The position numbers were made by a program, and so were the translations under genes. A stretch of DNA of 64,000 bases, taken from assembly GCA_900114405.1 (NCBI GenBank), contig FOSY01000004.1, forward strand, positions 1-64,000, in the 5' to 3' direction. The stretch's first letter is position 1; the number at the start of each line of letters is the position of its first letter. The DNA is from Lachnospiraceae bacterium KH1T2. Its GTDB lineage: Bacteria > Bacillota > Clostridia > Lachnospirales > Lachnospiraceae. Below are positions 43,452 to 56,156 of the stretch, in pieces. The notes beneath the pieces are model-generated. The model was not told the DNA's origin. It was given only the letters and a program-made list of their open reading frames with translations, and ran no database searches.

Positions 43452-43468
43452 TTCGGAGGATTATGATT

Positions 43469-44071
43469 ATGCAAAAAAAATTCGTTGTTACAATTACTCG
43501 TCAGTTTGGAAGTATGGGACGTCCGATTGCCCGGGAGATGGCAGAGAAGCTCGGCATTGAATACTATGACAGAGATATTGTTGATATGATTTCACAGAAG
43601 ATGAATCTTCCTGTATCCACCATTAGTAAACTTGAAGAACGATATTCGGAGCCTTCCCTGTTTAACATGGTATTTCCATTAGGATTCGCCACTGCCCAGA
43701 AACAGCATCGGATTTTTGAGGTACAGGCAAAGATTATTAATGATATGGCTGATAAGGAGAGCTGCATAATTGTTGGTCGCTGCTCTGATTACCTTATGTA
43801 TGACAGACCAAGACATCTGAACATATTTATCTATTCCTCCTACGAAAACAGATTAAAGAATTGTATCGAGCAGCTGGGAATGGGTGAAGATGAAGCAACA
43901 AAGATGATAGATGAAGTCGATAAAGCCAGAGATAATTATCACAGAAGATTTGCGAACAACACGCTTCCAAGCGACATTAGATATAAAGATATCATGATAG
44001 ACAGTGCCCTATTCGGAATAAATGGCACAGCGGAATATCTCGTAGATATCGTAAAAAAGAAATTTTATTAA
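43469..44071 (+). CDS. cytidylate-kinase-like protein
   Basis: A ~200-aa P-loop-like protein of the cytidylate-kinase-like family, starting KKFVVTITRQFGSMGRPIAR, with EMAEKLGIEYYDRDIVDMIS and IIVGRCSDYLMYDRP. The phosphate loop is the atypical FGSMGRPI rather than GxxGxGKS. GGAGG with 9-nt spacing favours ATG 43469 over 43463. It is the last gene of the transporter operon. Its link to amino-acid uptake is unclear; the true substrate of this family is not established. Confidence 0.8.
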   Translation: MQKKFVVTITRQFGSMGRPIAREMAEKLGIEYYDRDIVDMISQKMNLPVSTISKLEERYSEPSLFNMVFPLGFATAQKQHRIFEVQAKIINDMADKESCIIVGRCSDYLMYDRPRHLNIFIYSSYENRLKNCIEQLGMGEDEATKMIDEVDKARDNYHRRFANNTLPSDIRYKDIMIDSALFGINGTAEYLVDIVKKKFY

Positions 44072-44411: not shown

Positions 44412-46784
44412 TCATAAAGTCTGCTCTGTCCTTTCAATAATCTCATCCTGTAAGCTTTTACTCAGATTTCTAAAATGGTCGGAATAACCTGCTACTCTGA
44501 CTATAAGATCCTTATATTCTTCCGGATGATTCTGGGCATCAATAAGAGTTTTTCTGTCAATAACATTAAACTGAATGTGATGACCATCCATGTTGAAGTA
44601 TGTCCTTATCAAATTCGCCATTCCCATAAGTCCTTCTTCTCCCGCTACAACACCCGGAGTGAACTTCTGGTTAAGTAAGGTTCCACCGGTTGAAAGGTGA
44701 TCCATCTTGGAACATGATTTAACCACAGCTGTCGGTCCGTTCGTATCAGCTCCCTTATCAGGAGATATTCCTTCAGAAACAGGCTTATGTGCATGTCTTC
44801 CATTAGCACTTGCTATCATAACTTCACCAAAATATACGTGACAGGTTGTGGGCAGCATATTTATTCTGTATGTTCCACCCTTTATGTTTTTCCTTCCGTT
44901 CACAGCATTCATGTAATGCTCAAACACAGCTCTCATAATGTCGTCAGCCCTGTCATCGTCATTTCCGTATTTAGGTGAATGATTGCATACAAGATTATGG
45001 ATATAATCACAGCCTTCATAATCCTGTTCCAAAGCATTCATGAGCTCTTTCATGCTGAATTTCCTATTGTCGTATACATTGCATTTTATTGCGGCCAGAC
45101 AATCCGTTATGGTCCCTATTCCAACACCCTGAATATAGCTAGTGTTATATCTGGCACCTCCTGCATTATAGTCTTTTCCTTTTTTTATGCAGTCATTGGT
45201 AATTACCGATAAAAACGGAACCGGCATATCCTCGGAATATATTTTTTCGATAACCTGATTTCCTCTGATTTTGATATCAAGGAAATAGTCTATCTGTTTG
45301 CAGAATGCATCAAACAATTCTTCATATGTATCAAAGTCATACCCGTATCCAAGAGATAATCCTATCTGCTTTCCCGTGTAGTGATCATATCCGTTGAATA
45401 GTGTAATTTCCAATATCTTAGGGATATTAAAATAGCCCGTCAAAATGTACGATTCATTGCCAAAAGCTCCGGTTTCCACACATCCGCTGGTTCCTCCAAG
45501 TCTTGCATCATTAATTGATTTTCCTGCATTAAGAAGCTCCTGGATAATGGCTTCTGTATTGTAAAAAGCAGGTTGCCCCCATCCCTTTCTTGATATTTCA
45601 CATGCTCTTTTCAAAAATCTTAGCGGGGTCTTCTTACTTATCTGAACATTTGAAGATGGCTGAAGTAGTTTCATTTCATCCATTACATCAAGTATCAGAT
45701 AACTCACTTCATTAACCCCGTCTTTGCCGTCAGGAGTTATTCCTCCGGTGTTTATGTTTACAAAATCAGTGTAGGTACTGCTTTCCTTTAAGGTTGTTCC
45801 AACCTTTGGAGGCGAGGGCTGATTGTTAAACTTAATCCAAAAACACTCAAGCAATTCCTTTGCTTTATTTTCGTCAAGTATCCCTTCTTTTATGTCATGT
45901 CTGTAAAAACCGATAAGGTGTTGGTCAAGTCTTCCGGGAGAAAAAGCATCCCACGGATTAATCTCACTAGTTACACCAAGATGGATAAACCAGTACATCT
46001 GAATAGCCTGCCAGTATGTTTTCGGCGGCCTTGCCGGAACCTCCTCACAGTTATTTGCAATACATAATAATTCCTCTTTTCTCTCCGGATTAGTTTCTTT
46101 CAAAGCAAGCTCTCTGGCATATTCTGAATAACGCTTAGCCAGAATCATGATGGCATCACAGGCGATATCCATTGCCTTTAGCTCTGCTTCTTTATCAAGT
46201 GCATCTTTATCATTTATATAATCCAGCTTTTCCAGTTCATGCTTTATCTCTTCTTTGTAATCCAGGAATCCTTTTTTATAAAGATTCCCTGAGCCTACTG
46301 TATGTCCCGGGCCTCGCTGTTCCATAAACTCCGTAAAAATCCCTGCTTCGTAGCATTCCTTCCATTCTTTAGTCATGTGGGACAGGATTTTATTCCTTAT
46401 GCATCGTTTTCCCCAATATGGAATAATCTCATTTTCCTGAAATTCAAAATCCTTTTCTTTGACGCAAAAATTAATCAGCTCTCTCTCATTAAGTAAATTC
46501 AGATCTGCTATGGAATGACAACACAGCTCTGGGAACGTGGGGGCTGCAAGGGGTTGTGAACCTTTCTCACCGACTATTAATTCCCCTTCTCCTATATATA
46601 AAGTTTTCCCGGAAAAATAGTTTTTCAGACATAGTGCTCTAAGCTCAGGAGTAGATACCTTCCCATACATTTTTTTATATGTTTCCGTGATGAGTTTTGC
46701 CCTTTCCATATCAATGATGGCGCCGGCCTCAACGCTTTGCTTACGCAATTTTCTGACTCTTTCATTCATACCTCTTTCGCCCAT
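44412..46784 (-). CDS. hypD: trans-4-hydroxy-L-proline dehydratase (glycyl radical enzyme)
   Basis: Dehydrates trans-4-hydroxy-L-proline to pyrroline-5-carboxylate using a protein radical. The 790-aa protein has thiyl Cys435 and Glu437 in GGTSGCVETG and the glycyl radical Gly766 in VRVAGYSDHF; FMEQRGPGHTV, NNQPSPPKVG and TDTNGP-like GADTNGPTAV are also typical. Length and spacing agree with clostridial HypD as I recall it, and more so than with PFL or diol dehydratases. The activase gene lies 21 bp upstream and a proC remnant downstream, the usual HypD setting. GGAGG precedes the ATG. Oxygen-sensitive, cytoplasmic. Confidence 0.93.
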   Translation of the reverse strand: MGERGMNERVRKLRKQSVEAGAIIDMERAKLITETYKKMYGKVSTPELRALCLKNYFSGKTLYIGEGELIVGEKGSQPLAAPTFPELCCHSIADLNLLNERELINFCVKEKDFEFQENEIIPYWGKRCIRNKILSHMTKEWKECYEAGIFTEFMEQRGPGHTVGSGNLYKKGFLDYKEEIKHELEKLDYINDKDALDKEAELKAMDIACDAIMILAKRYSEYARELALKETNPERKEELLCIANNCEEVPARPPKTYWQAIQMYWFIHLGVTSEINPWDAFSPGRLDQHLIGFYRHDIKEGILDENKAKELLECFWIKFNNQPSPPKVGTTLKESSTYTDFVNINTGGITPDGKDGVNEVSYLILDVMDEMKLLQPSSNVQISKKTPLRFLKRACEISRKGWGQPAFYNTEAIIQELLNAGKSINDARLGGTSGCVETGAFGNESYILTGYFNIPKILEITLFNGYDHYTGKQIGLSLGYGYDFDTYEELFDAFCKQIDYFLDIKIRGNQVIEKIYSEDMPVPFLSVITNDCIKKGKDYNAGGARYNTSYIQGVGIGTITDCLAAIKCNVYDNRKFSMKELMNALEQDYEGCDYIHNLVCNHSPKYGNDDDRADDIMRAVFEHYMNAVNGRKNIKGGTYRINMLPTTCHVYFGEVMIASANGRHAHKPVSEGISPDKGADTNGPTAVVKSCSKMDHLSTGGTLLNQKFTPGVVAGEEGLMGMANLIRTYFNMDGHHIQFNVIDRKTLIDAQNHPEEYKDLIVRVAGYSDHFRNLSKSLQDEIIERTEQTL

Positions 46785-46805: not shown

Positions 46806-47681
46806 CTAACCTATATACACATTAACAAGTCCCAACTCAGTCATCCTATCTTTTAGCAATTCCATATCTTCTTCCTTTGGAGTATAAAAATCATTTCCCG
46901 GATATTTATAACCTATAAGCTCATATTTACTGCTTCCTGTATTGTGATATGGAAGCAGTGATATTCTGCTGTATGAAATCTCATTACCCTTAAGTAGCTC
47001 TGCTACAGAATTCACGTGGCCTTCATTGTCATTAGCGCCTCCGATAATTGGCAGTCTAATCCAGATATTTGCATTAAGCTTACTTAATTTGATCAGATTC
47101 TCGATAATCAGTTTGTTATCAGTACCTGTATACCTTATATGCTCCTCAGAATCAGTCAGTTTTATGTCATACAAAAAGGTGTCCGTATATGGAATCACTT
47201 TTTCAATTCTGTCAAAGGGCACATAGCCACAAGTATCTATATTTACTGATATGCCATTTTTATATAGTTCCTGCATAAGTTTTAGCAAATAATCCATATC
47301 TGTGGATAGCACTTCTCCGCCAGATAAAGTCACGCCTCCTCCGCTGGCTTCATAAAACGGCTCATCCTTCATGATTTCAGACACAAGTTCATCAATGCCA
47401 ATATCTCGTCCGCATATTTTCCTGGCACTGTAATTACATGCCGTAACACACTCTCCGCATGCAACGCATTTTTGTGTAAAAAAAGCTGCCTGATGCTTAC
47501 ATACTTCCTGACAGGAATTGCATCCCCTACATCTATCTTTGTAAAAGTAAAGCTGTCTTTTATAGTTCTGTGTCTCAGGATTGTGGCACCACTTACAACG
47601 GAGAGGACACCCCTTAAAGAACACTGTCGTTCTGGTTCCTTTACCATCGTGAATAGAAAATTTCTGAATATCAGTTATCAT
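46806..47681 (-). CDS. hypE: HypD-activating radical SAM enzyme
   Basis: A 291-aa glycyl-radical-enzyme activase. The radical SAM motif CPLRCKWC lies near residue 25, followed by two ferredoxin-like motifs CRGCNSCQEVC and CVACGECVTACN in the insert typical of non-PFL activases; GGGVTLSGGE binds SAM. It abstracts the Gly766 hydrogen of the adjacent HypD. A 13-bp hairpin separates it from the aminotransferase gene upstream. Confidence 0.92.
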   Translation of the reverse strand: MITDIQKFSIHDGKGTRTTVFFKGCPLRCKWCHNPETQNYKRQLYFYKDRCRGCNSCQEVCKHQAAFFTQKCVACGECVTACNYSARKICGRDIGIDELVSEIMKDEPFYEASGGGVTLSGGEVLSTDMDYLLKLMQELYKNGISVNIDTCGYVPFDRIEKVIPYTDTFLYDIKLTDSEEHIRYTGTDNKLIIENLIKLSKLNANIWIRLPIIGGANDNEGHVNSVAELLKGNEISYSRISLLPYHNTGSSKYELIGYKYPGNDFYTPKEEDMELLKDRMTELGLVNVYIG

Positions 47682-47794: not shown

Positions 47795-49009
47795 TTAAGC
47801 AACCGCTTCTACTGATGCCTTGATTATTTCAAAGGCCTCATCACAATCCTCTTTAGAAATAATAAGCGGTGGTACCATTCGGATTGTATGTGCTCCGATA
47901 GCGGTAATAAGCAGATGTCTGTTAATGCATTCATGCTTGACCTCCACACCTGCAACATTGTCATCAAATTCAACACCCACAAGAAGTCCCTGTCCTCTGA
48001 CCTCTTTTACATGGGGTAGTTTCGACAGCTTATCCTTAAAGTAATCTCCCATCTTTGCAGCATTATCAGCAAGATTTCTGCCAAGTAGTTCATCTACTTC
48101 AGCAAGCGCTGCCGCACATGAAACAGGATGTCCGCCAAAAGTAGTTCCATGGGAGCCTGCACTAAATGCCTTTGCCACTTCTTCAGTCGCACAAATAGCA
48201 CCTATTGGCATTCCTCCGCCCAGCGCCTTTGCCATGGATACAATATCAGGCTTGATTCCATAGTGCATATAACTCATGATTTTACCGGTTCTGCACCAGC
48301 CTGTCTGAACTTCGTCAATCAGGAGAAGAATACCCTTTTCATCGCAGAATTCTCTAAGTCCGGTCATGAATTCCTGTGTAGCAGGATGAACACCTCCCTC
48401 ACCCTGAACAGGTTCAATCATGATTCCTATCGTATTTTCTGTGCAGGCATCCTTAAAGGCCTTAAGGTCATTATAAGGAGCATAGGAAAATCCATAGGTC
48501 ATAGGGCCGAATCCTACCTGGCATCCGTTTCCCGGCTGACCTGTTGCTGACATGGCACCGAAAGTACGTCCATGGAAACCATTTTTGGCTGTCACAATGT
48601 GATATTTATTTGGTCCATACTTTTCTATTCCATATTTTCGAGCCATCTTGATCATGGCTTCATTTGCTTCCGTACCGGAATTCTGAAAAAAAATCTTGTC
48701 CATACCGATTGCGGTACAAACCTTCTCGGCCAAAAGAGCCTGAGGAATAGTGTAAGGATAATTGAAGGTGTGCATAACATCCTTAACCTGATCAATTACT
48801 GCCTCAACAACCTTATCGTTACAGCTTCCGGCTGAATTAACTGCAATGCCCGCATAAAAATCCAGATACTTTTCTCCACTTTCGTCATATAGATACTGGT
48901 CCTTTGCCGTCTCGCAGACAAAGTCCATTCTTTCGTAGGTCTCTATCATGTATTTACTTACTTTTTCCTTAATATCCGAAGAAGATAATCCCAAGTCCTT
49001 TAATTTCAT
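47795..49009 (-). CDS. class III aminotransferase, ornithine/acetylornithine type
   Basis: A 404-aa PLP enzyme of the ArgD/RocD group. The PLP lysine lies in SMAKALGGGMP near residue 256; FFQNSGTEANEAMIKMARK near 108, GFHGRTFGAMSATGQP, EPVQGEGGV and LIDEVQTGWCRTG are intact. In a proline-fermenting cluster it most likely turns ornithine into glutamate semialdehyde/P5C (or uses a related omega-amino acid), feeding proline formation. No arginine genes are near, so biosynthetic ArgD is less likely. CGGGAGGAAAG precedes the ATG. Confidence 0.86.
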   Translation of the reverse strand: MKLKDLGLSSSDIKEKVSKYMIETYERMDFVCETAKDQYLYDESGEKYLDFYAGIAVNSAGSCNDKVVEAVIDQVKDVMHTFNYPYTIPQALLAEKVCTAIGMDKIFFQNSGTEANEAMIKMARKYGIEKYGPNKYHIVTAKNGFHGRTFGAMSATGQPGNGCQVGFGPMTYGFSYAPYNDLKAFKDACTENTIGIMIEPVQGEGGVHPATQEFMTGLREFCDEKGILLLIDEVQTGWCRTGKIMSYMHYGIKPDIVSMAKALGGGMPIGAICATEEVAKAFSAGSHGTTFGGHPVSCAAALAEVDELLGRNLADNAAKMGDYFKDKLSKLPHVKEVRGQGLLVGVEFDDNVAGVEVKHECINRHLLITAIGAHTIRMVPPLIISKEDCDEAFEIIKASVEAVA

Positions 49010-49036: not shown

Positions 49037-50638
49037 TTATTGTGATACTATGCTCTTTAAATATGGAATCAGAAGCTTCTGTCCTGTCTCAACCAGGCTT
49101 CCTTCTCCACGTTTAACACACCAGTCATATATAACTCCTCTTTCTATTGAGGCATAGGTCTCTGCTATATCATCAGTGCTTTCTTCCCTGGTGAACTCCC
49201 CTGAGTGCTGTCCTTCCGAAATAATCTGAGGAATTATCGCATAATAGAATCGCTTTTTGTTAAGCATTTCCTGACGCTCTTCCGGTACCGTTACATAAAT
49301 ATGGCTTGTCAGATCCAGCGGAACATGCTTCTCGATAAGAGAAAACAGCTCATGATTAAGAAAAACCAGCTTGTCGAAATTTGTAAATCGTGGATTCATA
49401 TTAACCATAAGCTGTGCATACTTCTCATCAAACAGATCACCCAGGGTATGTTCCAATTCTTCCTTAGACCGGAAATATGCATTAAATTCTTCCAATGAAA
49501 CCTCTGCCCTCAGCAAAATATCATCCACTGTTGTTGCCTCATATGATTTTTCATCGAATAATTCCCAGGCAGCGTTTACAATTCTCGCTCTGATATTTTC
49601 CTTCTTAGCACTCATGTTACCCAGCAGGAAGCCGTTACCCAAAGGGTCTGTTTCATCTATGATCCATTCATTAAGGCCTGTAATCCATGCACTTCCCGTA
49701 ATTCTAGGAATGATTCCGGTACCTCCGTTTATTTCAACCAGCTTGTCAATTTCTCCCCTGAAGGTCGAACCGGTAATACTTTCATAAACAAAAGTATCCT
49801 TTACTCCCATCTCGCCTTTATGATAAAGAGCTGCCAGTTTCGCACTTGTACCTGTTCCACAGGGAGAACGGTCAGCCTGAGCATCTCCGAAAATAACGCA
49901 GTTCTTCATATCAGCCGTTTTAGTGGATGTATGAGCGTAAAATTCAACCAGGTCGACGGTGTTAATATCCAGATAGGGATGTTTTATTTCATACTTTCTG
50001 TTTATCTCTTTGCGAAGTTTCATGCCCAAATCTGTTATGGTCTCAATCTTTTGAAGCTCAAGGGGTAAGCCTATGCTTTCGGCATTTACAAGAGCAAAGA
50101 ATGAGCCTCCAAAAGAGATATCAAAAGAAATTTCTCCCCACCCATCGATGTCCACCTTCAGGTTCTCTCTGTACAGAAAAGAAGGAACATTTAAGATACT
50201 GACTTCCACTGCTTTACCATCAACAACGTGGACTCTGGTACGAATAATTCCGCTGGGAGCATCAAGTACAACATCTGTATACGGTTCCTTTACGGCAACC
50301 ATTCCTGTTTCAACAAGCATAGTCGCCGTACCTATACTTCCATGACCGCACATATTGAGGTAACTTCCGGAATCCATAAATATAACTCCACAATCTGCTT
50401 CCTCATGTACAGGCTCTGTAAGAAGTGCCCCAAACATATCTCTATGACCTCTGGGTTCCAGCATCATGGCTGTGCGAAGAAAATCGTAATTTTCCATGAG
50501 ATAGTTCTTTTTTTCCATCATGGTCTTACCCTGCAGAGCAGGAAAACCATCATATATTATTCTGGTAGCTTCGCCTTCAGTATGAGAATCAATTGTTTTC
50601 AGATGATAGCTATATTTTTTTAACTTAGGAAGTTTCAT
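49037..50638 (-). CDS. proline racemase fused to a TetR-like regulator domain
   Basis: A 533-aa fusion. Residues 1-341 are a proline racemase/4-hydroxyproline epimerase with both catalytic cysteines: Cys97 in LNMCGHGSIGTAT and Cys260 in DRSPCGTGTS; IDSHTEGEATR is diagnostic. It would make D-proline for the reductase (PrdF role). Residues 342-533 start MSAKKENIRARIVNAAWELF and form a TetR-type helix-turn-helix (TTVDDILLRAEVSLEEFNAY) plus ligand domain. No stop or frameshift separates them, and no ribosome site is obvious before Met342. It may be a self-reporting enzyme-regulator or a recent gene fusion. Confidence 0.88.
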   Translation of the reverse strand: MKLPKLKKYSYHLKTIDSHTEGEATRIIYDGFPALQGKTMMEKKNYLMENYDFLRTAMMLEPRGHRDMFGALLTEPVHEEADCGVIFMDSGSYLNMCGHGSIGTATMLVETGMVAVKEPYTDVVLDAPSGIIRTRVHVVDGKAVEVSILNVPSFLYRENLKVDIDGWGEISFDISFGGSFFALVNAESIGLPLELQKIETITDLGMKLRKEINRKYEIKHPYLDINTVDLVEFYAHTSTKTADMKNCVIFGDAQADRSPCGTGTSAKLAALYHKGEMGVKDTFVYESITGSTFRGEIDKLVEINGGTGIIPRITGSAWITGLNEWIIDETDPLGNGFLLGNMSAKKENIRARIVNAAWELFDEKSYEATTVDDILLRAEVSLEEFNAYFRSKEELEHTLGDLFDEKYAQLMVNMNPRFTNFDKLVFLNHELFSLIEKHVPLDLTSHIYVTVPEERQEMLNKKRFYYAIIPQIISEGQHSGEFTREESTDDIAETYASIERGVIYDWCVKRGEGSLVETGQKLLIPYLKSIVSQ

Positions 50639-50654
50639 AGTATTTCCTCATTCA

Positions 50655-51380
50655 TTAAACGTTATGTCTGTATTCGTAAGGAAGAACCTTCATCTGGTTG
50701 TAGCTTGGGCAATCTCTTACCCACTCCAGAGACTCCTTAATGATCGCTGTCTGCATCGGTTTATTATTGGGCTCACCTGCATTTGAACCAATCGGAACAT
50801 GGGGTGCGGTAATTCTTGGTGCACCCTGCCGCCTTGCAATCGGAGGAAGCGCAGCTATTACAACACAGCTCATTCCTTCAGCTTCACAACATCTTGTGAC
50901 GATTGTTGCGGATCTGTGACAGGTTCCGCAGCCGCCGGTACAAAGGACAATATCAACTCCCTGCTCCTTAAGCTTTCTCGCAATTTCAGGGCCTGTTTCA
51001 TTTTTGAATTTCTCAACGTTTCCACCGCCACCCATGAATGTATATGTCTCATTTGAGAGAGAACCGATAAAGCCCTCCTCCACTAATTCATGCAGTCTGT
51101 CGATAGGGAACATCGCGTTGACATCTTTATTGATATCCGAGTTATCAAAACCACCATGTGTAACCATAAGTTCTGAAGACGGTGTATCAAATTCGATAGT
51201 TCTGTATGAAAAATCTCCGGATGTATTAAAAGGTGTCTGGCTCTTTTTATGAATACCTCCCGCTGTGATAAATGCAACCTTGCACTCACTAAGCGGCTTT
51301 TTAAGTTCTGTAAAAACCGGTGGCGGTGTAACAGGGACAAATATTTCTGACTGCATACCCTCTAATGTTGTTAATCTCAT
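50655..51380 (-). CDS. prdB: D-proline reductase gamma subunit, cysteine form
   Basis: Catalytic subunit of D-proline reductase, which opens the ring of D-proline to 5-aminovalerate. The 241-aa protein starts MRLTTLEGMQSEIFVPVTPP, has THGGFDNSDINKDVNAMFPI and ends in a PYEY motif. The active site reads CTGGCGTCHRSA: the residue that is selenocysteine in characterised clostridial PrdB is Cys151 here, and no in-frame TGA occurs. The enzyme should therefore be selenium-independent and probably slower. AGGAGG sets ATG 51380. It lies 14 bp after the CBO2463-like gene. Confidence 0.92.
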   Translation of the reverse strand: MRLTTLEGMQSEIFVPVTPPPVFTELKKPLSECKVAFITAGGIHKKSQTPFNTSGDFSYRTIEFDTPSSELMVTHGGFDNSDINKDVNAMFPIDRLHELVEEGFIGSLSNETYTFMGGGGNVEKFKNETGPEIARKLKEQGVDIVLCTGGCGTCHRSATIVTRCCEAEGMSCVVIAALPPIARRQGAPRITAPHVPIGSNAGEPNNKPMQTAIIKESLEWVRDCPSYNQMKVLPYEYRHNV

Positions 51381-51394
51381 TATCTCTTCCTCCT

Positions 51395-51844
51395 TTATAT
51401 GCATTCTGCAGGTATCTCTTTTTTTCCGACTATACGCATGGGACTAAAATAAAACTCCACATTCTGCCCTTTCGTTAACGGTGAATCTGTAAATGCCCAT
51501 CTTCTCGGTACTGCTACAGTGCCAATATCATCCATCATCTCAGCCTTTATTGCAGTATCATTAACCTCCGTTATTGTTCCTCCGATAAAACAGGGTGAAA
51601 AATCTTTTTCTCTTTTAAGCGAAGAACTATCGTAGTCATAAGGCTCTTCATTAACCTGGATATAGCTGAAATAAAACTGCATATCATGCCCCACCTCCGG
51701 CGTTATATCTTCATTCAGAATGTAGCAGGTTGGTACTTCTATTACCCCAAGTCTCCCATGAAGATGTACCTTGACAGTGCTTTCATTTACTTCTTTAATT
51801 AGTCCACCCATTAAAATGGGATTGATTGTATAATCAATTTTCAT
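51395..51844 (-). CDS. CBO2463/CBO2479-domain protein of the prd cluster
   Basis: A 149-aa protein made of two ~60-residue repeats: MGGLIKEVNESTVKVHLHGR ... VGHDMQFYFSYIQV and IGGTITEVNDTAIKAEMMDD ... KGQNVEFYFSPMRIV. This is the small beta-barrel-like domain known from clostridial proline-reductase operons, here in tandem. The function is unknown; it might help assembly or cofactor maturation. It is placed between prdA and prdB. Confidence 0.8.
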   Translation of the reverse strand: MKIDYTINPILMGGLIKEVNESTVKVHLHGRLGVIEVPTCYILNEDITPEVGHDMQFYFSYIQVNEEPYDYDSSSLKREKDFSPCFIGGTITEVNDTAIKAEMMDDIGTVAVPRRWAFTDSPLTKGQNVEFYFSPMRIVGKKEIPAECI

Positions 51845-51872: not shown

Positions 51873-53654
51873 TTAGTGCAATGTTCCGTTGTCTAATAAA
51901 ACTGTTTCCGGCAAGCATAATAATTTATTGTTTGCGTTAATCACATCGTTGTTCCACTTCTTTGGTGCCGGTGCAATTTCCACTCCTGCCATCTTATTCT
52001 TAAGCATCTGAATTGCTCTCGCAGCAACTTCCTTTGTTACACAGGAGCAACCTGCTACGTTATTCTCAAAGCCGCCCTTATCCATGTTTTCTTCTACCAT
52101 GGCAGTTGCATATTCATTTCCCACTACAAGCTGTCCCTGATATGCACAGAATGAAACTCCTACTACCGGAATTCCTCTCTTACCTGCCTGTCCGATGTGC
52201 TGGATGAAATCGATATGGTTATTACCAAAGCCTTCAGTTGTGATAATGCAACCATCAATATCAAGGGATTCCAGAAGTGAACCCAGCCGTTCGGATACCC
52301 ATAGCTTTTCATCGTTTACCTGAGGAGATCCCACAAATACTACTCCAACCAGATCCATCTCAGAATCAGCTGCAAGGCCTTCAACAAGTGGCTCGCGGAT
52401 ATAATGACGGGTCATTTCCTTTGTTGCGGGTCCGATGCAGGTGAGAGCGTGTATAGAACCATCCCTTACCTGATTTGGTGTCAGAATAATCGGAACATTT
52501 CCACAATCTACGTTTTTCTGTCCGCCTAAAATACCGCAGGGCTCTGTAGGGCAGATAACGTTATCATGCATAGCTCCCTGACCCATGATTTCCTTAACCA
52601 GAACAACTCTCGGATTTCCGGGACGTCTTACATCCTCACAGATTTCTTCTCTTACGATTTCTCCGTCATATTTTTTCAATTCGTTTCTAACTGCCTGAAT
52701 TACATAATCCTGGCATTTGTGTGCTGAAAACGGGCCGGGTCTTGTCATTCCGGAAAGTCTCTGAATAACCACATGGCATCTTATTATGATGTCATTTTCA
52801 TCAGCACAGCCGGGATGTCCGAAGTACATCTTTTCATCAAGGTAACCTTCAGATGAACCGAATTCATGGACCTGAACTCCATCCTCATCTACACCTGTCA
52901 GCATGAATACAACGCCATCAGCTACTTTTGTTATTCCGCTTCCAAGCTCACCTTCAACCTTTGTAGCTATAGGACACACATCCATAATTGTTTCCGTATA
53001 CTGGTGTCTTTCGTTCGGATGAATGACATCAAGCTTCATACTCTTACACAATTCATCTTCCAGAATCGCTTTTTCCACTATGCTTCCGTCAATAGTAATC
53101 TTCCCATCCTTAATAGATGTTTCTGTTCCGATTTCCACGTCCTTTATTTTGATATGCTGCTTTTTAAGTGTTCTTATTACCTTCTTATCACCTGTAGTCT
53201 TCTTTTCATCCTCTACTGCAGGGGCCGCATCTAAAGCAGGTGTTCCGGAAAAAAGAGGAACATCTATACTTAATCCTTCTAATTTCTCTGCGTGTCCAAT
53301 CTCGATATGAAGCATTCCATTACCTCCTGTTACTGTTTTTATCGCTTTTTCTGTCGGGGCTGTTACAGCACTTTCCTTTTTGGGGCTCTCCTTTTCTATC
53401 TCATTTACTTTGTCCAAAACGCTTCTTGTTATTGGGGTTAAAGCCTCAACGTCACATAATAAAGTCGCTCCGAGTACCTGCTCGATTGTCAGCCCCTCAT
53501 CGCTAAGTGTAAGAAGTCCGGCATCGACCATATCATCAAATAAAGACGGGTCCTCCAGATCTGCTGCACTGATCACCAGTCCTTTTTCTCTTCTGCAGCA
53601 GAAGATAGCCGGATCTTTTAAGTGCATTTTTAGTGTTTCCTGTGTGATAGACAT
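51873..53654 (-). CDS. prdA: D-proline reductase proprotein PrdA
   Basis: A 593-aa precursor of the alpha and beta subunits. Self-cleavage before a cysteine creates the pyruvoyl group that binds D-proline; here the site is most likely Thr405-Cys406 in IHALTCIGPATKE, giving a beta part of ~405 and an alpha part of 188 residues. MTRPGPFSAHKCQDY, GFGNNHIDFIQHI and GVSFCAYQGQLVVGNEY are typical of the family. AAGGAGG precedes the ATG. Second gene after prdC, before the CBO2463-type gene and prdB. Confidence 0.93.
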   Translation of the reverse strand: MSITQETLKMHLKDPAIFCCRREKGLVISAADLEDPSLFDDMVDAGLLTLSDEGLTIEQVLGATLLCDVEALTPITRSVLDKVNEIEKESPKKESAVTAPTEKAIKTVTGGNGMLHIEIGHAEKLEGLSIDVPLFSGTPALDAAPAVEDEKKTTGDKKVIRTLKKQHIKIKDVEIGTETSIKDGKITIDGSIVEKAILEDELCKSMKLDVIHPNERHQYTETIMDVCPIATKVEGELGSGITKVADGVVFMLTGVDEDGVQVHEFGSSEGYLDEKMYFGHPGCADENDIIIRCHVVIQRLSGMTRPGPFSAHKCQDYVIQAVRNELKKYDGEIVREEICEDVRRPGNPRVVLVKEIMGQGAMHDNVICPTEPCGILGGQKNVDCGNVPIILTPNQVRDGSIHALTCIGPATKEMTRHYIREPLVEGLAADSEMDLVGVVFVGSPQVNDEKLWVSERLGSLLESLDIDGCIITTEGFGNNHIDFIQHIGQAGKRGIPVVGVSFCAYQGQLVVGNEYATAMVEENMDKGGFENNVAGCSCVTKEVAARAIQMLKNKMAGVEIAPAPKKWNNDVINANNKLLCLPETVLLDNGTLH

Positions 53655-53676: not shown

Positions 53677-54981
53677 CTAACTGATTTTCCTGATTATTCT
53701 TTGGTTAACTGCTCTTAGTGCACCATCCGTGCAGTGATAAACCGGTAGTCCAAGCTGTGGTGCACAGCTCATTACTGTATTGGAGCAATCCGTGCAGTTA
53801 CTGATTAAAACTGCTTCTGCTCCTGCTTTCTTTAAAGCCATAACCTTTTGAACCTGTCCCGGACATTTCCCGGGATTTTCACATTTAAGTGAAGCTTTCA
53901 CCTTATGTGCCTGCTTGCAGTATTCACAGCCCACAACCTCTGAGCCAAGGCTTTCTGCTATTTCTTCAAGTCTCTCTTTATTAGCACCGCATGCACAAAC
54001 CAAAAGACCTATCTTTTCAGGACCCTTGGGGAAGCACTCAGCTGCTATTATTCCCCCGGTCGTCTTAACTACCGGCGCATCCAGATTTGTCCTCTTACCT
54101 GTAAAAGGGCCACCCATTATTATTTCTCCAAAGTCATCAGCCAATCCTCCGGCTCTTTTCAACATGCTTCCTACTGATATTCCAAGTGGTACATCATAGA
54201 AAACCTGTATCAGTTTTCTATCATCCTTAAGCTTTCCGGCAATGGTCATGTTTTTATCAATCAGTGGCTTTTTTAAATCAACTGCTTCCTGAATCCTGCA
54301 AATTGTTTCAGCATTGATTACTATGGCTCCTGCTTCAGAAGGAAGACTTTCAACTCCCAGCAGCGTTCCGAGACATTCTCTTATAACTGCTCTTTCCTCT
54401 CCCATTGGATACAGGTTCTTCAGCAGATGAACTGTTATTCTACTATTCTTTTTTGCAACAAGTTCACTGTTTATCGCATCAACTGCTTTTTCATGAATAC
54501 CCTTTATTGCGATGATTCCACGCTTAGCCTTAACCACTTCCATGGCTATTTCAAGCCCTCTTATCAATTGTTCCGGCTTTTGCTCAATCGCTCTTATATT
54601 GTGTTCCAATATAGGTTCACACTCTGCAGCGTTTACAATGACAACACCATCCTTTTCAAAAGGTTTATTCAGTTTTGCATATGTGGGAAATCCGGCACCT
54701 CCAAGGCCAACCAATCCTGATTCTTCTATTAATGCAAGTGGTGTGTCAGATTTCAGTTTTTTGTATTCCGGCTTCTGATCATCATCTGCCAGAATAAAAA
54801 TTGCTTCATCTGTCACCTCTGTTACAGTACCGGAGACACTTGAATAAACATTTGCGCCTAAGTCATTTTTGCCCTTATACGCAACAAGCTGCCCTCGAAC
54901 AATTGTGTCTCCTTTGACAATTGCTGGGGCAGCCTGTGCTCCGATATTCTGCTTCAGAGGGAAACAAAACAGTTCACCCAT
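53677..54981 (-). CDS. prdC: proline-reductase-associated electron transfer protein PrdC
   Basis: A 434-aa RnfC-related protein thought to pass electrons from NADH to D-proline reductase. The N-terminus MGELFCFPLKQNIGAQAAPA and the barrel-sandwich stretch precede the NADH/FMN-type domain GLVGLGGAGFPTYAKL near residue 90 and VNAAECEPILEHN. Cysteine motifs CACGANKE, GCEYCKQAH, CENPGKCPGQ and SNCTDCSNTV lie near the C-terminus. First gene of the prd operon, starting at the promoter 55029-55057. No in-frame TGA, so not a selenoprotein in this form. Confidence 0.9.
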   Translation of the reverse strand: MGELFCFPLKQNIGAQAAPAIVKGDTIVRGQLVAYKGKNDLGANVYSSVSGTVTEVTDEAIFILADDDQKPEYKKLKSDTPLALIEESGLVGLGGAGFPTYAKLNKPFEKDGVVIVNAAECEPILEHNIRAIEQKPEQLIRGLEIAMEVVKAKRGIIAIKGIHEKAVDAINSELVAKKNSRITVHLLKNLYPMGEERAVIRECLGTLLGVESLPSEAGAIVINAETICRIQEAVDLKKPLIDKNMTIAGKLKDDRKLIQVFYDVPLGISVGSMLKRAGGLADDFGEIIMGGPFTGKRTNLDAPVVKTTGGIIAAECFPKGPEKIGLLVCACGANKERLEEIAESLGSEVVGCEYCKQAHKVKASLKCENPGKCPGQVQKVMALKKAGAEAVLISNCTDCSNTVMSCAPQLGLPVYHCTDGALRAVNQRIIRKIS

Positions 54982-55212: not shown

Positions 55213-55246
55213 AAAGGCGTTAAAGCGATTGCTTTAGCGCCTTTTT
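55213..55246 (+). terminator. leader terminator before the lysR gene
   Basis: AAAGGCG-t-TAAAGC / GCTTTA-GCGCCTTTTTG starting ~5 nt after the presumed transcription start and ~35 bp before the start codon. It is a terminator by sequence, placed as an attenuator. Confidence 0.65.
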
Positions 55247-55280
55247 GTTTATATTAAAAAACGGGAGGAGGCAAAATTAT

Positions 55281-56156
55281 ATGGATATAAAGAAATTCAA
55301 ATTATTTGCCGATGTTGCCGAAACTGGGAATTTCACAAAAAGTGGCGAGCGCCAGGGATATACACAGTCAGGTGTAAGTCACATATTAAAATCTTTAGAA
55401 AATGAAGTTGGATTTCCACTTTTTATAAGGTCAAAGCAAGGAGTATCTCTTACTAAAAATGCCTTACAGCTTTTACCTATGGTCAGATCTCTGCTGGCGA
55501 TGTATGAAACACTTGAGCAAAACATAAATGAAATAAACGGAATTGAAACCGGTTCACTGACCATTGCAACTTATCAGAGCATCTCAATAAACTGGCTTCC
55601 TTCCATTATTCATTGCTTTCAAAGTACATATCCGGGCATCAATATCCGTCTCATGGAGGGCGGAACCGATGACATAGTAAACTGGGTAGAAAATGGAATA
55701 GCTGATTTTGGCTTCCTGTCAAAGCATAATCTTCAATCTCTTGACTGGATTCCTTTACGGGAGGATCCTCTAATGGCTATAGTTCCCTATGATTATGTGC
55801 CAAAACACAGCAGTTATATATCTATAGAAGAATTTCAGGGAGTTTCCTTTATAATGACTGCAATGGGTACCGATTATGACGTGCATTCCGCTCTTTCAGA
55901 ATCAAGCGTTGTTCCGGACGTTCGGTTCACCTCAAAGGATGATCACGCGATTATTTCCATGGTTGCAAATCACTTAGGATACACTATTCTTCCTGAGCTT
56001 ATAGTAAAAGGCTTTGAATCTCAAGTAAAGATTCTTCCCCTATTGCCTCAAATGTCCAGACATCTTGGCATTGCACTCAAATCCAAGGCTGCCATGTCGC
56101 CTGCTACTTCAAAATTCATAGGTTTGACCAAGGAAATGCTCCCAAGCTTAGGCTAA
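55281..56156 (+). CDS. LysR-family regulator of the prd operon
   Basis: A 291-aa LysR protein: winged helix MDIKKFKLFADVAETGNFTK, then SGERQGYTQSGVSHILKSL, and an effector domain. GGGAGGAGG precedes ATG 55281. It is divergent from prdC with an array of TGTCATG boxes between, so it most likely activates prd. Known clostridial prd operons use the sigma-54 activator PrdR instead; none is seen here. Its stop overlaps that of the convergent sdaAA by 4 bp. Confidence 0.9.
   Translation: MDIKKFKLFADVAETGNFTKSGERQGYTQSGVSHILKSLENEVGFPLFIRSKQGVSLTKNALQLLPMVRSLLAMYETLEQNINEINGIETGSLTIATYQSISINWLPSIIHCFQSTYPGINIRLMEGGTDDIVNWVENGIADFGFLSKHNLQSLDWIPLREDPLMAIVPYDYVPKHSSYISIEEFQGVSFIMTAMGTDYDVHSALSESSVVPDVRFTSKDDHAIISMVANHLGYTILPELIVKGFESQVKILPLLPQMSRHLGIALKSKAAMSPATSKFIGLTKEMLPSLG

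Follow-up and report, generated by a model that had tools for sequence, protein, structure and literature searches.

Metabolic enzymes are known to communicate with genes through DNA-binding parts, as in PutA, a proline dehydrogenase fused to a DNA-binding ribbon-helix-helix domain. Racemases and epimerases of the proline racemase type are marked by two catalytic cysteines, and TetR-fold proteins such as FadR and MtrR act as free repressors. AsProR of Acetoanaerobium (7pb3) and TcPRAC of Trypanosoma cruzi (1w61) carry both catalytic cysteines in chains of 335 and 353 residues, respectively, with no TetR tail. To date the regulator described is PrdR, which was demonstrated in C. difficile and predicted for eight further species (PMC6615313).

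Here we analyse a gene in a 64,000-bp stretch of Lachnospiraceae bacterium KH1T2 (contig FOSY01000004.1, positions 1 to 64,000; hereafter the window), which codes for a racemase fused to a TetR-like tail. The enzyme part shares 51% and 48% identity with AsProR and TcPRAC, respectively, in structural alignments. The protein resembles PutA in that an enzyme of proline metabolism carries a domain derived from a transcription factor; however, the domain of PutA binds DNA, whereas the fused TetR tail has lost its DNA-reading motif. The initial annotation knew of no described racemase-TetR protein, and our search of PMC full text (racemase with TetR, and neighbouring topics) likewise found no description of one.

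Results

A racemase gene fused in frame to a TetR-like domain

The fused gene is one open frame of 533 codons on the minus strand, with an ATG start and zero internal stops (Table 1). The initial annotation had given its coordinates exactly, leaving the strand unstated, and had read it as a single frame joining a racemase with catalytic cysteines 97 and 260 to a TetR-type domain. Both Pfam domains score above their cut-offs (Pro_racemase, 401.6 bits compared to 27; TetR_N, 39.9 bits compared to 24), and both cysteines are found and conserved, C260 in 11/11 aligned fused rows and C97 in all 10 rows reaching that position. The enzyme part thus belongs to PF05544 by its score above the gathering cut-off and its catalytic cysteine pair, and the tail to the TetR family by its TetR_N score and its predicted fold (see below). 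The best of the family models, the proline racemase equivalog NF010576, gave 477.2 bits, under its curated cut-off of 556; with that cut-off unreached, either proline racemisation or hydroxyproline epimerisation would fit the enzyme part. No other member of the racemase family was found in the window's own genome, which is 98.6% complete.

A search for further proteins with both domains, as the initial annotation had proposed, yielded 12 other distinct fused sequences with a complete tail. Because their fused frames are open, a sequencing error hiding a stop codon near position 49614 is untenable and was ruled out. Relatives with the same whole arrangement are 60-91% identical to the window's protein (genome contig scan), and this recurrence indicates that the racemase-tail arrangement is far beyond chance.

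Table 1. Features of the fused gene and its surroundings in the window.
Feature	Position	Strand	Evidence
hypD, trans-4-hydroxy-L-proline dehydratase	44412..46784	-	NF043068, 1473 bits over 1100
Glycyl radical enzyme activase, probably of HypD	46806..47681	-	TIGR02494 over cut-off; NF043069 367.7 bits, below 425
Acetylornithine/ornithine-type aminotransferase	47795..49009	-	TIGR00707, 440.9 bits over 410
Fused gene, racemase + TetR-like tail, 533 aa	49037..50638	-	Frame, Pfam, fused homologues
TetR ligand/dimer region, residues 396-533	49040..49453	-	dN/dS, shared invariants, TetR fold
TetR_N helix-turn-helix, residues 353-395; core kept, recognition surface diverged	49454..49582	-	Pfam, per-position comparison
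Former recognition helix, residues 381-391 (SLEEFNAYFRS)	49466..49498	-	Family motif absent
Linker, residues 338-349, variable	49592..49627	-	Low pLDDT, low pairwise identity
Pro_racemase domain, residues 16-337	49628..50593	-	Pfam PF05544, 401.6 bits; both Cys conserved
Cys260 codon	49859-49861	-	Conserved Cys of Pro_racemase domain
Cys97 codon	50348-50350	-	Conserved Cys of Pro_racemase domain
prdB, D-proline reductase subunit, one open frame	50655..51404	-	TIGR04483, 456 bits over 300
CBO2463/CBO2479-domain protein, between prdA and prdB	51395..51844	-	NF041553, 152 bits over 50
prdA, D-proline reductase proprotein	51873..53654	-	TIGR04480, 879 bits over 700
prdC, electron transfer protein	53677..54981	-	TIGR04481, 635 bits over 490
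Divergent LysR-type regulator, candidate current local regulator	55245..56156	+	LysR distribution; no NCBIfam cut-off reached

Fused, adjacent and tail-free forms

The genome contig scan returned 20 loci. Fused proteins were read from the frames of L031 to L039, in addition to L040, which lacks the helix-turn-helix (HTH), and L048, which is truncated at the 5′ end by the contig border; genome searches added fusions in G251 (L115), G745 (L155) and G733 (L156). With the near copies L034 and L035 counted once (L035 dropped), racemase and complete tail share one frame in 13 distinct sequences, window included, plus L040 without its HTH. Wherever a family is named, the host belongs to the Lachnospiraceae. 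Racemase-TetR fusions are uncommon: 51 of 397 genomes of the family encode the racemase at E≤1e-20, with a frame exceeding 500 aa in 3 places. In the order, 392 genomes were searched with the fused profile; 27 have a match at E≤1e-90, which spans the full length in 3 (G000 belongs to both samples). Among plasmid relatives, 555 records match, none covering 80% of the query in one place, and no fusion was seen.

The tail profile (A2) matches 316 of the 397 family genomes at E≤1e-6. Among the matches listed, three are tails of racemase fusions; of the rest, many of the top-scoring ones are encoded directly downstream of a racemase gene. We fetched 24 loci of this adjacent kind, which were picked for the arrangement and hence give no frequency; in 24/24 the racemase gene is followed by a standalone TetR gene on the same strand, and the fusion therefore joins neighbours. 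A divergent prdC is within reach in 22 of the 24. Tail-free ("naked") racemases also occur, and two genera hold both forms, with fused G000 and naked G039 in one and fused G745 and naked G254 in the other. A tblastn search for TetR remnants behind the naked racemases of 14 loci returned nothing at E≤1 except two weak matches inside the racemase gene.

Two further loci were observed. At G052:C4:966-5503, fragments of both the racemase and the TetR family are found, and one fragment of the racemase has five internal stops. L094 (G400:C28, a 498-codon frame) codes for a TetR of the same family with its canonical recognition motif kept and an extra C-terminal part that we take to be endonuclease-IV-like, perhaps another fusion.

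The tail belongs to a family of standalone, often racemase-adjacent regulators

In a TetR tree of 46 rows, which drew long-branch warnings and whose bootstrap had not settled, all 11 fused tails fall into a single clade (support 100/97; recovered in 100% of 200 bootstrap trees), and the 24 adjacent TetRs likewise cluster with one another. Standalone TetRs of the same bacterial family are homologous along the whole tail and share its invariants in the ligand/dimer region. They differ in being separate genes with the recognition motif kept, the racemase-adjacent ones having a predicted palindromic operator, whereas the fused tails are without the motif. These comparisons indicate that the tail belongs to the family of standalone TetR regulators found directly downstream of the racemase in related genomes.

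The racemase trees, which omit the 5′-cut L048 and take in L040 instead for 13 fused rows, do not separate fused from naked racemases within the window's group but intermix them, with naked L144 branching outside the fused group. The fused/naked labels require at least 6 changes, 2 of them forced by well-supported branches. A single fusion followed by several tail losses is the simplest reading, in which we infer the number and order of events, and the tail-free racemases of the group are best explained by tail loss. Exchange between lineages may nevertheless have taken place, since 184/500 label shuffles were as low as the observed 6 changes and only 2 changes are forced.

The fusion lies in a proline reductase and hydroxyproline cluster

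The minus-strand gene order is prdC, prdA, the CBO2463-domain gene, prdB, the fusion, the aminotransferase gene, the HypD-type activase gene and hypD, with the divergent LysR gene in front. Equivalog cut-offs of NCBIfam are reached by PrdA, PrdB, PrdC and HypD, whereas the activase passes a subfamily cut-off only. The CBO2463/CBO2479-domain gene occupies the same place between prdA and prdB in several related loci. Another gene, at 43463-44071 of the window, adjoins an amino-acid ABC transporter cassette and lies close to the racemase in the majority of fused and naked loci; it has no NCBIfam match at 1e-10, and from reading its sequence we presume that the product is kinase-like.

A LysR at least 50% identical to that of the window is encoded in 7/12 fused and 5/8 naked loci (window counted; the remaining stretches are mostly short), compared to 0/24 adjacent-TetR loci, where LysR matches are 23-31% identical. 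This distribution makes the divergent LysR a likelier local transcription regulator than the tail, a role it would have taken, and a swap of transcription regulator from TetR to LysR is plausible.

The window's prdB has no in-frame TGA and encodes Cys at the presumed selenocysteine position. A prdB interrupted by one in-frame TGA, resembling selenoprotein prdB, is found in 22 adjacent-TetR loci, the same 22 with prdC in reach. A tRNA-Sec gene was detected in 7/7 adjacent-TetR loci scanned (L117, L123, L125, L129, L130, L132 and L133), and by eye we took sequences between prdC and the racemase in five adjacent-TetR intergenic regions to be tRNA-Sec. Since fused L032 also has a TGA-split prdB (466-1254) and tRNA-Sec, the fusion is not strictly tied to the Cys-type prd.

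Fused tails lack the family recognition motif

The motif S[KR]G[STG]FY[HY][YH]F is present in 52/52 standalone relatives and in 0/13 fused tails, including L155 and L156, which were found after the pattern had been noticed. The 52 rows are the strongest matches of the fused-tail profile plus L050 rather than all matches, and the motif was widened to this final form after inspection of rows such as L050 and L163. L172 (TetR not parsed), L094 and L105 (46-row tree only) are outside the set, L040 is excluded from HTH counts as it has no HTH, and L116, L041, L042, L045 and L046 were dropped as presumed duplicates, their contigs being equal in length to those of L039, L135, L143, L145 and L146, respectively.

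Mean pairwise identity of the recognition helix (residues 381-391) is 95.7% in the 24 adjacent TetRs compared to 34.0% in 11 fused tails, while residues 392-531 give 69.4% and 59.5%, respectively. Divergence alone is insufficient to account for the loss of the motif, because pairs matched at 45-55% tail identity differ sharply there, with 23.8% for fused (maximum 36.4; 21 pairs) and 80.2% for standalone proteins (minimum 54.5; 466 pairs). The other four bins holding fused pairs go in the same direction, with lower recognition-helix identity in the fused. Helix 1 is alike at 45-55% tail identity (66.0% fused compared to 62.9% standalone) and lower in the closer fused pairs, at 73.4% compared to 81.9% (55-65%) and 75.4% compared to 86.8% (65-75%); the relaxation is therefore centred on the recognition helix and not confined to it. 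Even between the window and L031, 91% identical overall, 3/11 recognition-helix residues differ.

TetR_N scores range from 33.1 to 49.6 in the fused tails (10/13 scored) and from 59.3 to 70.2 in 10 standalone rows scored. At eight recognition-helix positions that we take to be DNA-facing, as in TetR structures, 12/13 fused tails have one to four Asp/Glu and L037 none; standalone rows have 0 or 1. Whole-HTH charge, which separated the first 26 standalone TetRs well, overlapped on the 52 and was dropped as a discriminator. The HTH core is kept, with I353, A357, W358, F361, T369, F389, K392 and L395 in 13/13 fused tails and F385 in 12/13. In L040 (2139-3623), a metagenome assembly, 67 residues are missing in frame relative to L036; the gap spans the end of the racemase part, the linker and the HTH into the start of helix 4, with the rest of the tail intact.

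The comparison indicates that the family recognition motif was lost after fusion, from which we infer that the tail has probably lost DNA binding. It may still bind DNA via a new surface or at a new site, and the L037 tail could still do so.

A predicted operator of the adjacent TetRs has no close match in fused or naked sources

Adjacent racemase-TetR clusters (L117-L133 and L147-L153; 22/24 in reach) mostly contain two palindromes each. The palindrome CTTATAGA-N5-TCTATAAG occurs within 3 mismatches in 20/22 racemase-prdC intergenic regions compared to 3/440 shuffled regions, having been found and counted on these same 22 regions, many from close species (L120 and L149, with no prdC in reach, were left aside). 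The looser YTTATAGA-N5-TCTATAAR occurs within 3 mismatches in 21/22 and is dense there: the 12,560 bp between the racemase and prdC genes contain 41 sites, compared to 17 in the 287,162 bp around. In 19/22 regions a site (≤4 mismatches) sits immediately in front of the ribosome-binding site, its end being 22-43 bp upstream of the racemase ATG, and in 19/22 another lies nearer prdC. We take this palindrome as the predicted operator of the adjacent TetR.

In three loci read (L121, L123 and L128), one further site lies about 40-105 bp before another gene, recognised by eye as presumably a cysteine desulfurase gene followed by one for a YedE-like transporter. The predicted TetR operator is thus seen at proline reductase and, in these three, before likely selenium genes. 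No simple sigma54-type pattern was found in 22 type A intergenic regions.

Twenty fused or naked sources, window included, contain no match to YTTATAGA-N5-TCTATAAR within 2 mismatches; each of the 14 matches seen across their 285,727 bp has 3 mismatches, and this number corresponds to the background rate. Genome-wide operator counts were below a reversed-pattern control in 8 of 10 genomes and above it in 2 (G082 and G424), and fusion genomes also have matches at ≤2 mismatches (G000, 21 places; G251, 4; G454, 7), so we make no regulon claim. A de novo palindrome search of 13 type B control regions (fused loci; short) gave a best 5-mer half-site in 3/13, with four shuffles reaching up to 2, and no 6-mer half-site common to two of these regions. 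Operators may have co-diverged with the recognition helix, and fused loci may have a new operator or one that they do not share.

The half beyond the HTH is constrained and predicted to fold as TetR

For the window and L031, dN/dS is 0.03 in the racemase, 0.17 in linker plus HTH and 0.03 in the tail (residues 396-530); for L034 and L048 the values are 0.05, 0.26 and 0.04, and the tail gives 0.02 for L036 and L040, all rough given the high dS of these pairs. In L033 and L115, where dS is saturated, dN shows a small excess in linker plus HTH (0.133) over tail (0.094) and racemase (0.097). Residues 396-530 thus appear to be under constraint as strong as that on the racemase (three pairs out of four, with dN/dS of 0.02-0.04), and relaxed constraint appears centred on the linker and HTH; the HTH, with dN/dS below 1 and its core kept, seems still under some constraint. 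D404, Y407, N428, R463, Y465, Y495, E499, R500, D505 and W506 hardly vary in either the fused or the standalone proteins, and no frameshift or stop was found in the 13 complete fused tails.

As the structure search with the full-length model listed racemases and related enzymes among its matches, the tail was modelled alone. AlphaFold2 predicts a complete TetR helix bundle (pLDDT 89.5, pTM 0.81), which would share its fold with FadR of B. subtilis (3whc; TM-score 0.78 over the query) and MtrR of N. gonorrhoeae (3vib; 0.79) at 13-22% identity. In the full-length model, residues 315-347 joining racemase and tail have pLDDT below 50, and mean pairwise identity at linker residues 341-349 is 19.8% (11 fused tails).

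Many standalone relatives neighbour proline or hydroxyproline genes

A putP-like symporter gene, so assigned by our reading of the sequence, lies by the standalone TetR in 9/30 loci scanned (8 places, including L114 of the window's own genome). Twenty further standalone loci, covered for about 2.5 kb on each side where the contig allowed, have putP in 6, a HypD-like gene in 6, prdC in 1 and none of these in 7; the HypD-like proteins are 70-87% identical to the window's HypD. Standalone relatives near putP-like or HypD-like genes are L114, L134 (=L102), L050, L080, L081, L084, L093 and L099; L160, L162, L163, L165, L167 and L168; and L166, L170, L172, L174, L176 and L178. The standalone relatives are probably a family of proline/hydroxyproline regulators, and the parent TetR family is likely to sense proline or a related compound.

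Discussion

We propose, with a probability of roughly 0.58, that the enzyme took in a repressor linked to proline, which then ceased to read DNA and was retained as a module for sensing or dimerisation. A standalone TetR gene directly downstream of the racemase would have fused to the racemase gene in one lineage, and other lineages of the group would have lost the tail again. The fused tail has given up the family DNA-reading motif but retains its predicted fold as well as the ligand/dimer half that is under constraint. The enzyme part would racemise proline, or epimerise hydroxyproline, feeding D-proline reductase; the tail would dimerise and bind proline or a related metabolite (D-proline, hydroxyproline or 5-aminovalerate), and in its liganded or dimeric state stabilise or tune the racemase, with the divergent LysR taking over local transcription control. 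Since the half beyond the HTH is strongly constrained, the tail may sense something. A tentative, more specific version is that the tail gave up DNA and now binds a proline-like ligand to set racemase activity, with LysR at the promoter; both the identity of the ligand and its effect on the racemase are putative.

A tail with no regulatory or sensing role, constrained only for folding or solubility and on its way to being lost, is a rather improbable alternative. It would agree with the naked racemases found among the fused ones in the tree, also within the same genus, and with an HTH that is relaxed and once deleted. However, the tail is constrained like the enzyme in three pairs, the polar residues common to standalone regulators are kept, and the 13 complete tails are unbroken. 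That the fused/naked labels on the racemase tree cluster no better than shuffled ones, and that helix 1 is also relaxed in the closer pairs, adds a little weight to this alternative over the captured repressor.

The initial annotation had suggested that an enzyme whose tail binds DNA could report its substrate directly to gene control. What stands of that racemase-TetR reading is one conserved frame within a prd/hypD cluster; DNA binding and the reporting of substrate to genes are not supported. A trigger enzyme resembling PutA, with a tail that still binds DNA near prd/hyp promoters and is modulated by substrate occupancy of the racemase, is unlikely. Enzyme and tail do share one frame, TetR_N exceeds its Pfam cut-off, a full TetR fold is predicted, and the HTH retains its core residues and a dN/dS below 1. 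Yet the parent DNA-reading motif is kept in none of the 13 fused tails, the recognition helix varies even between the window and L031, the fused loci have neither a parent-type operator within 2 mismatches nor a convincing shared palindrome, and L040 has dispensed with the HTH altogether. It is very improbable that an internal start near Met342, which the initial annotation had also raised, yields a free TetR as a second protein from the same gene: Met occupies that residue in the window, L031 and L156, but is missing from the linkers of the remaining 10 among the 13 fused proteins (Met only considered), so a conserved internal ATG start at residue 342 is unlikely.

A comparison series is already at hand, running from racemase and TetR as neighbouring genes through the fusions and one fusion without its HTH to racemases that have no tail. 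The TetR family near prd, proline-transport and hydroxyproline genes supplies candidates for the control of anaerobic proline metabolism in these bacteria. The fusion described here seems to be one between enzyme and regulator whose regulator part turned into a part of the enzyme, that is, reverse traffic in which a transcription factor seemingly became an enzyme domain in the proline metabolism of gut and rumen bacteria. If this is true, an enzyme would have absorbed the repressor of its own pathway as an allosteric sensor, and control would have moved from transcription to the enzyme.
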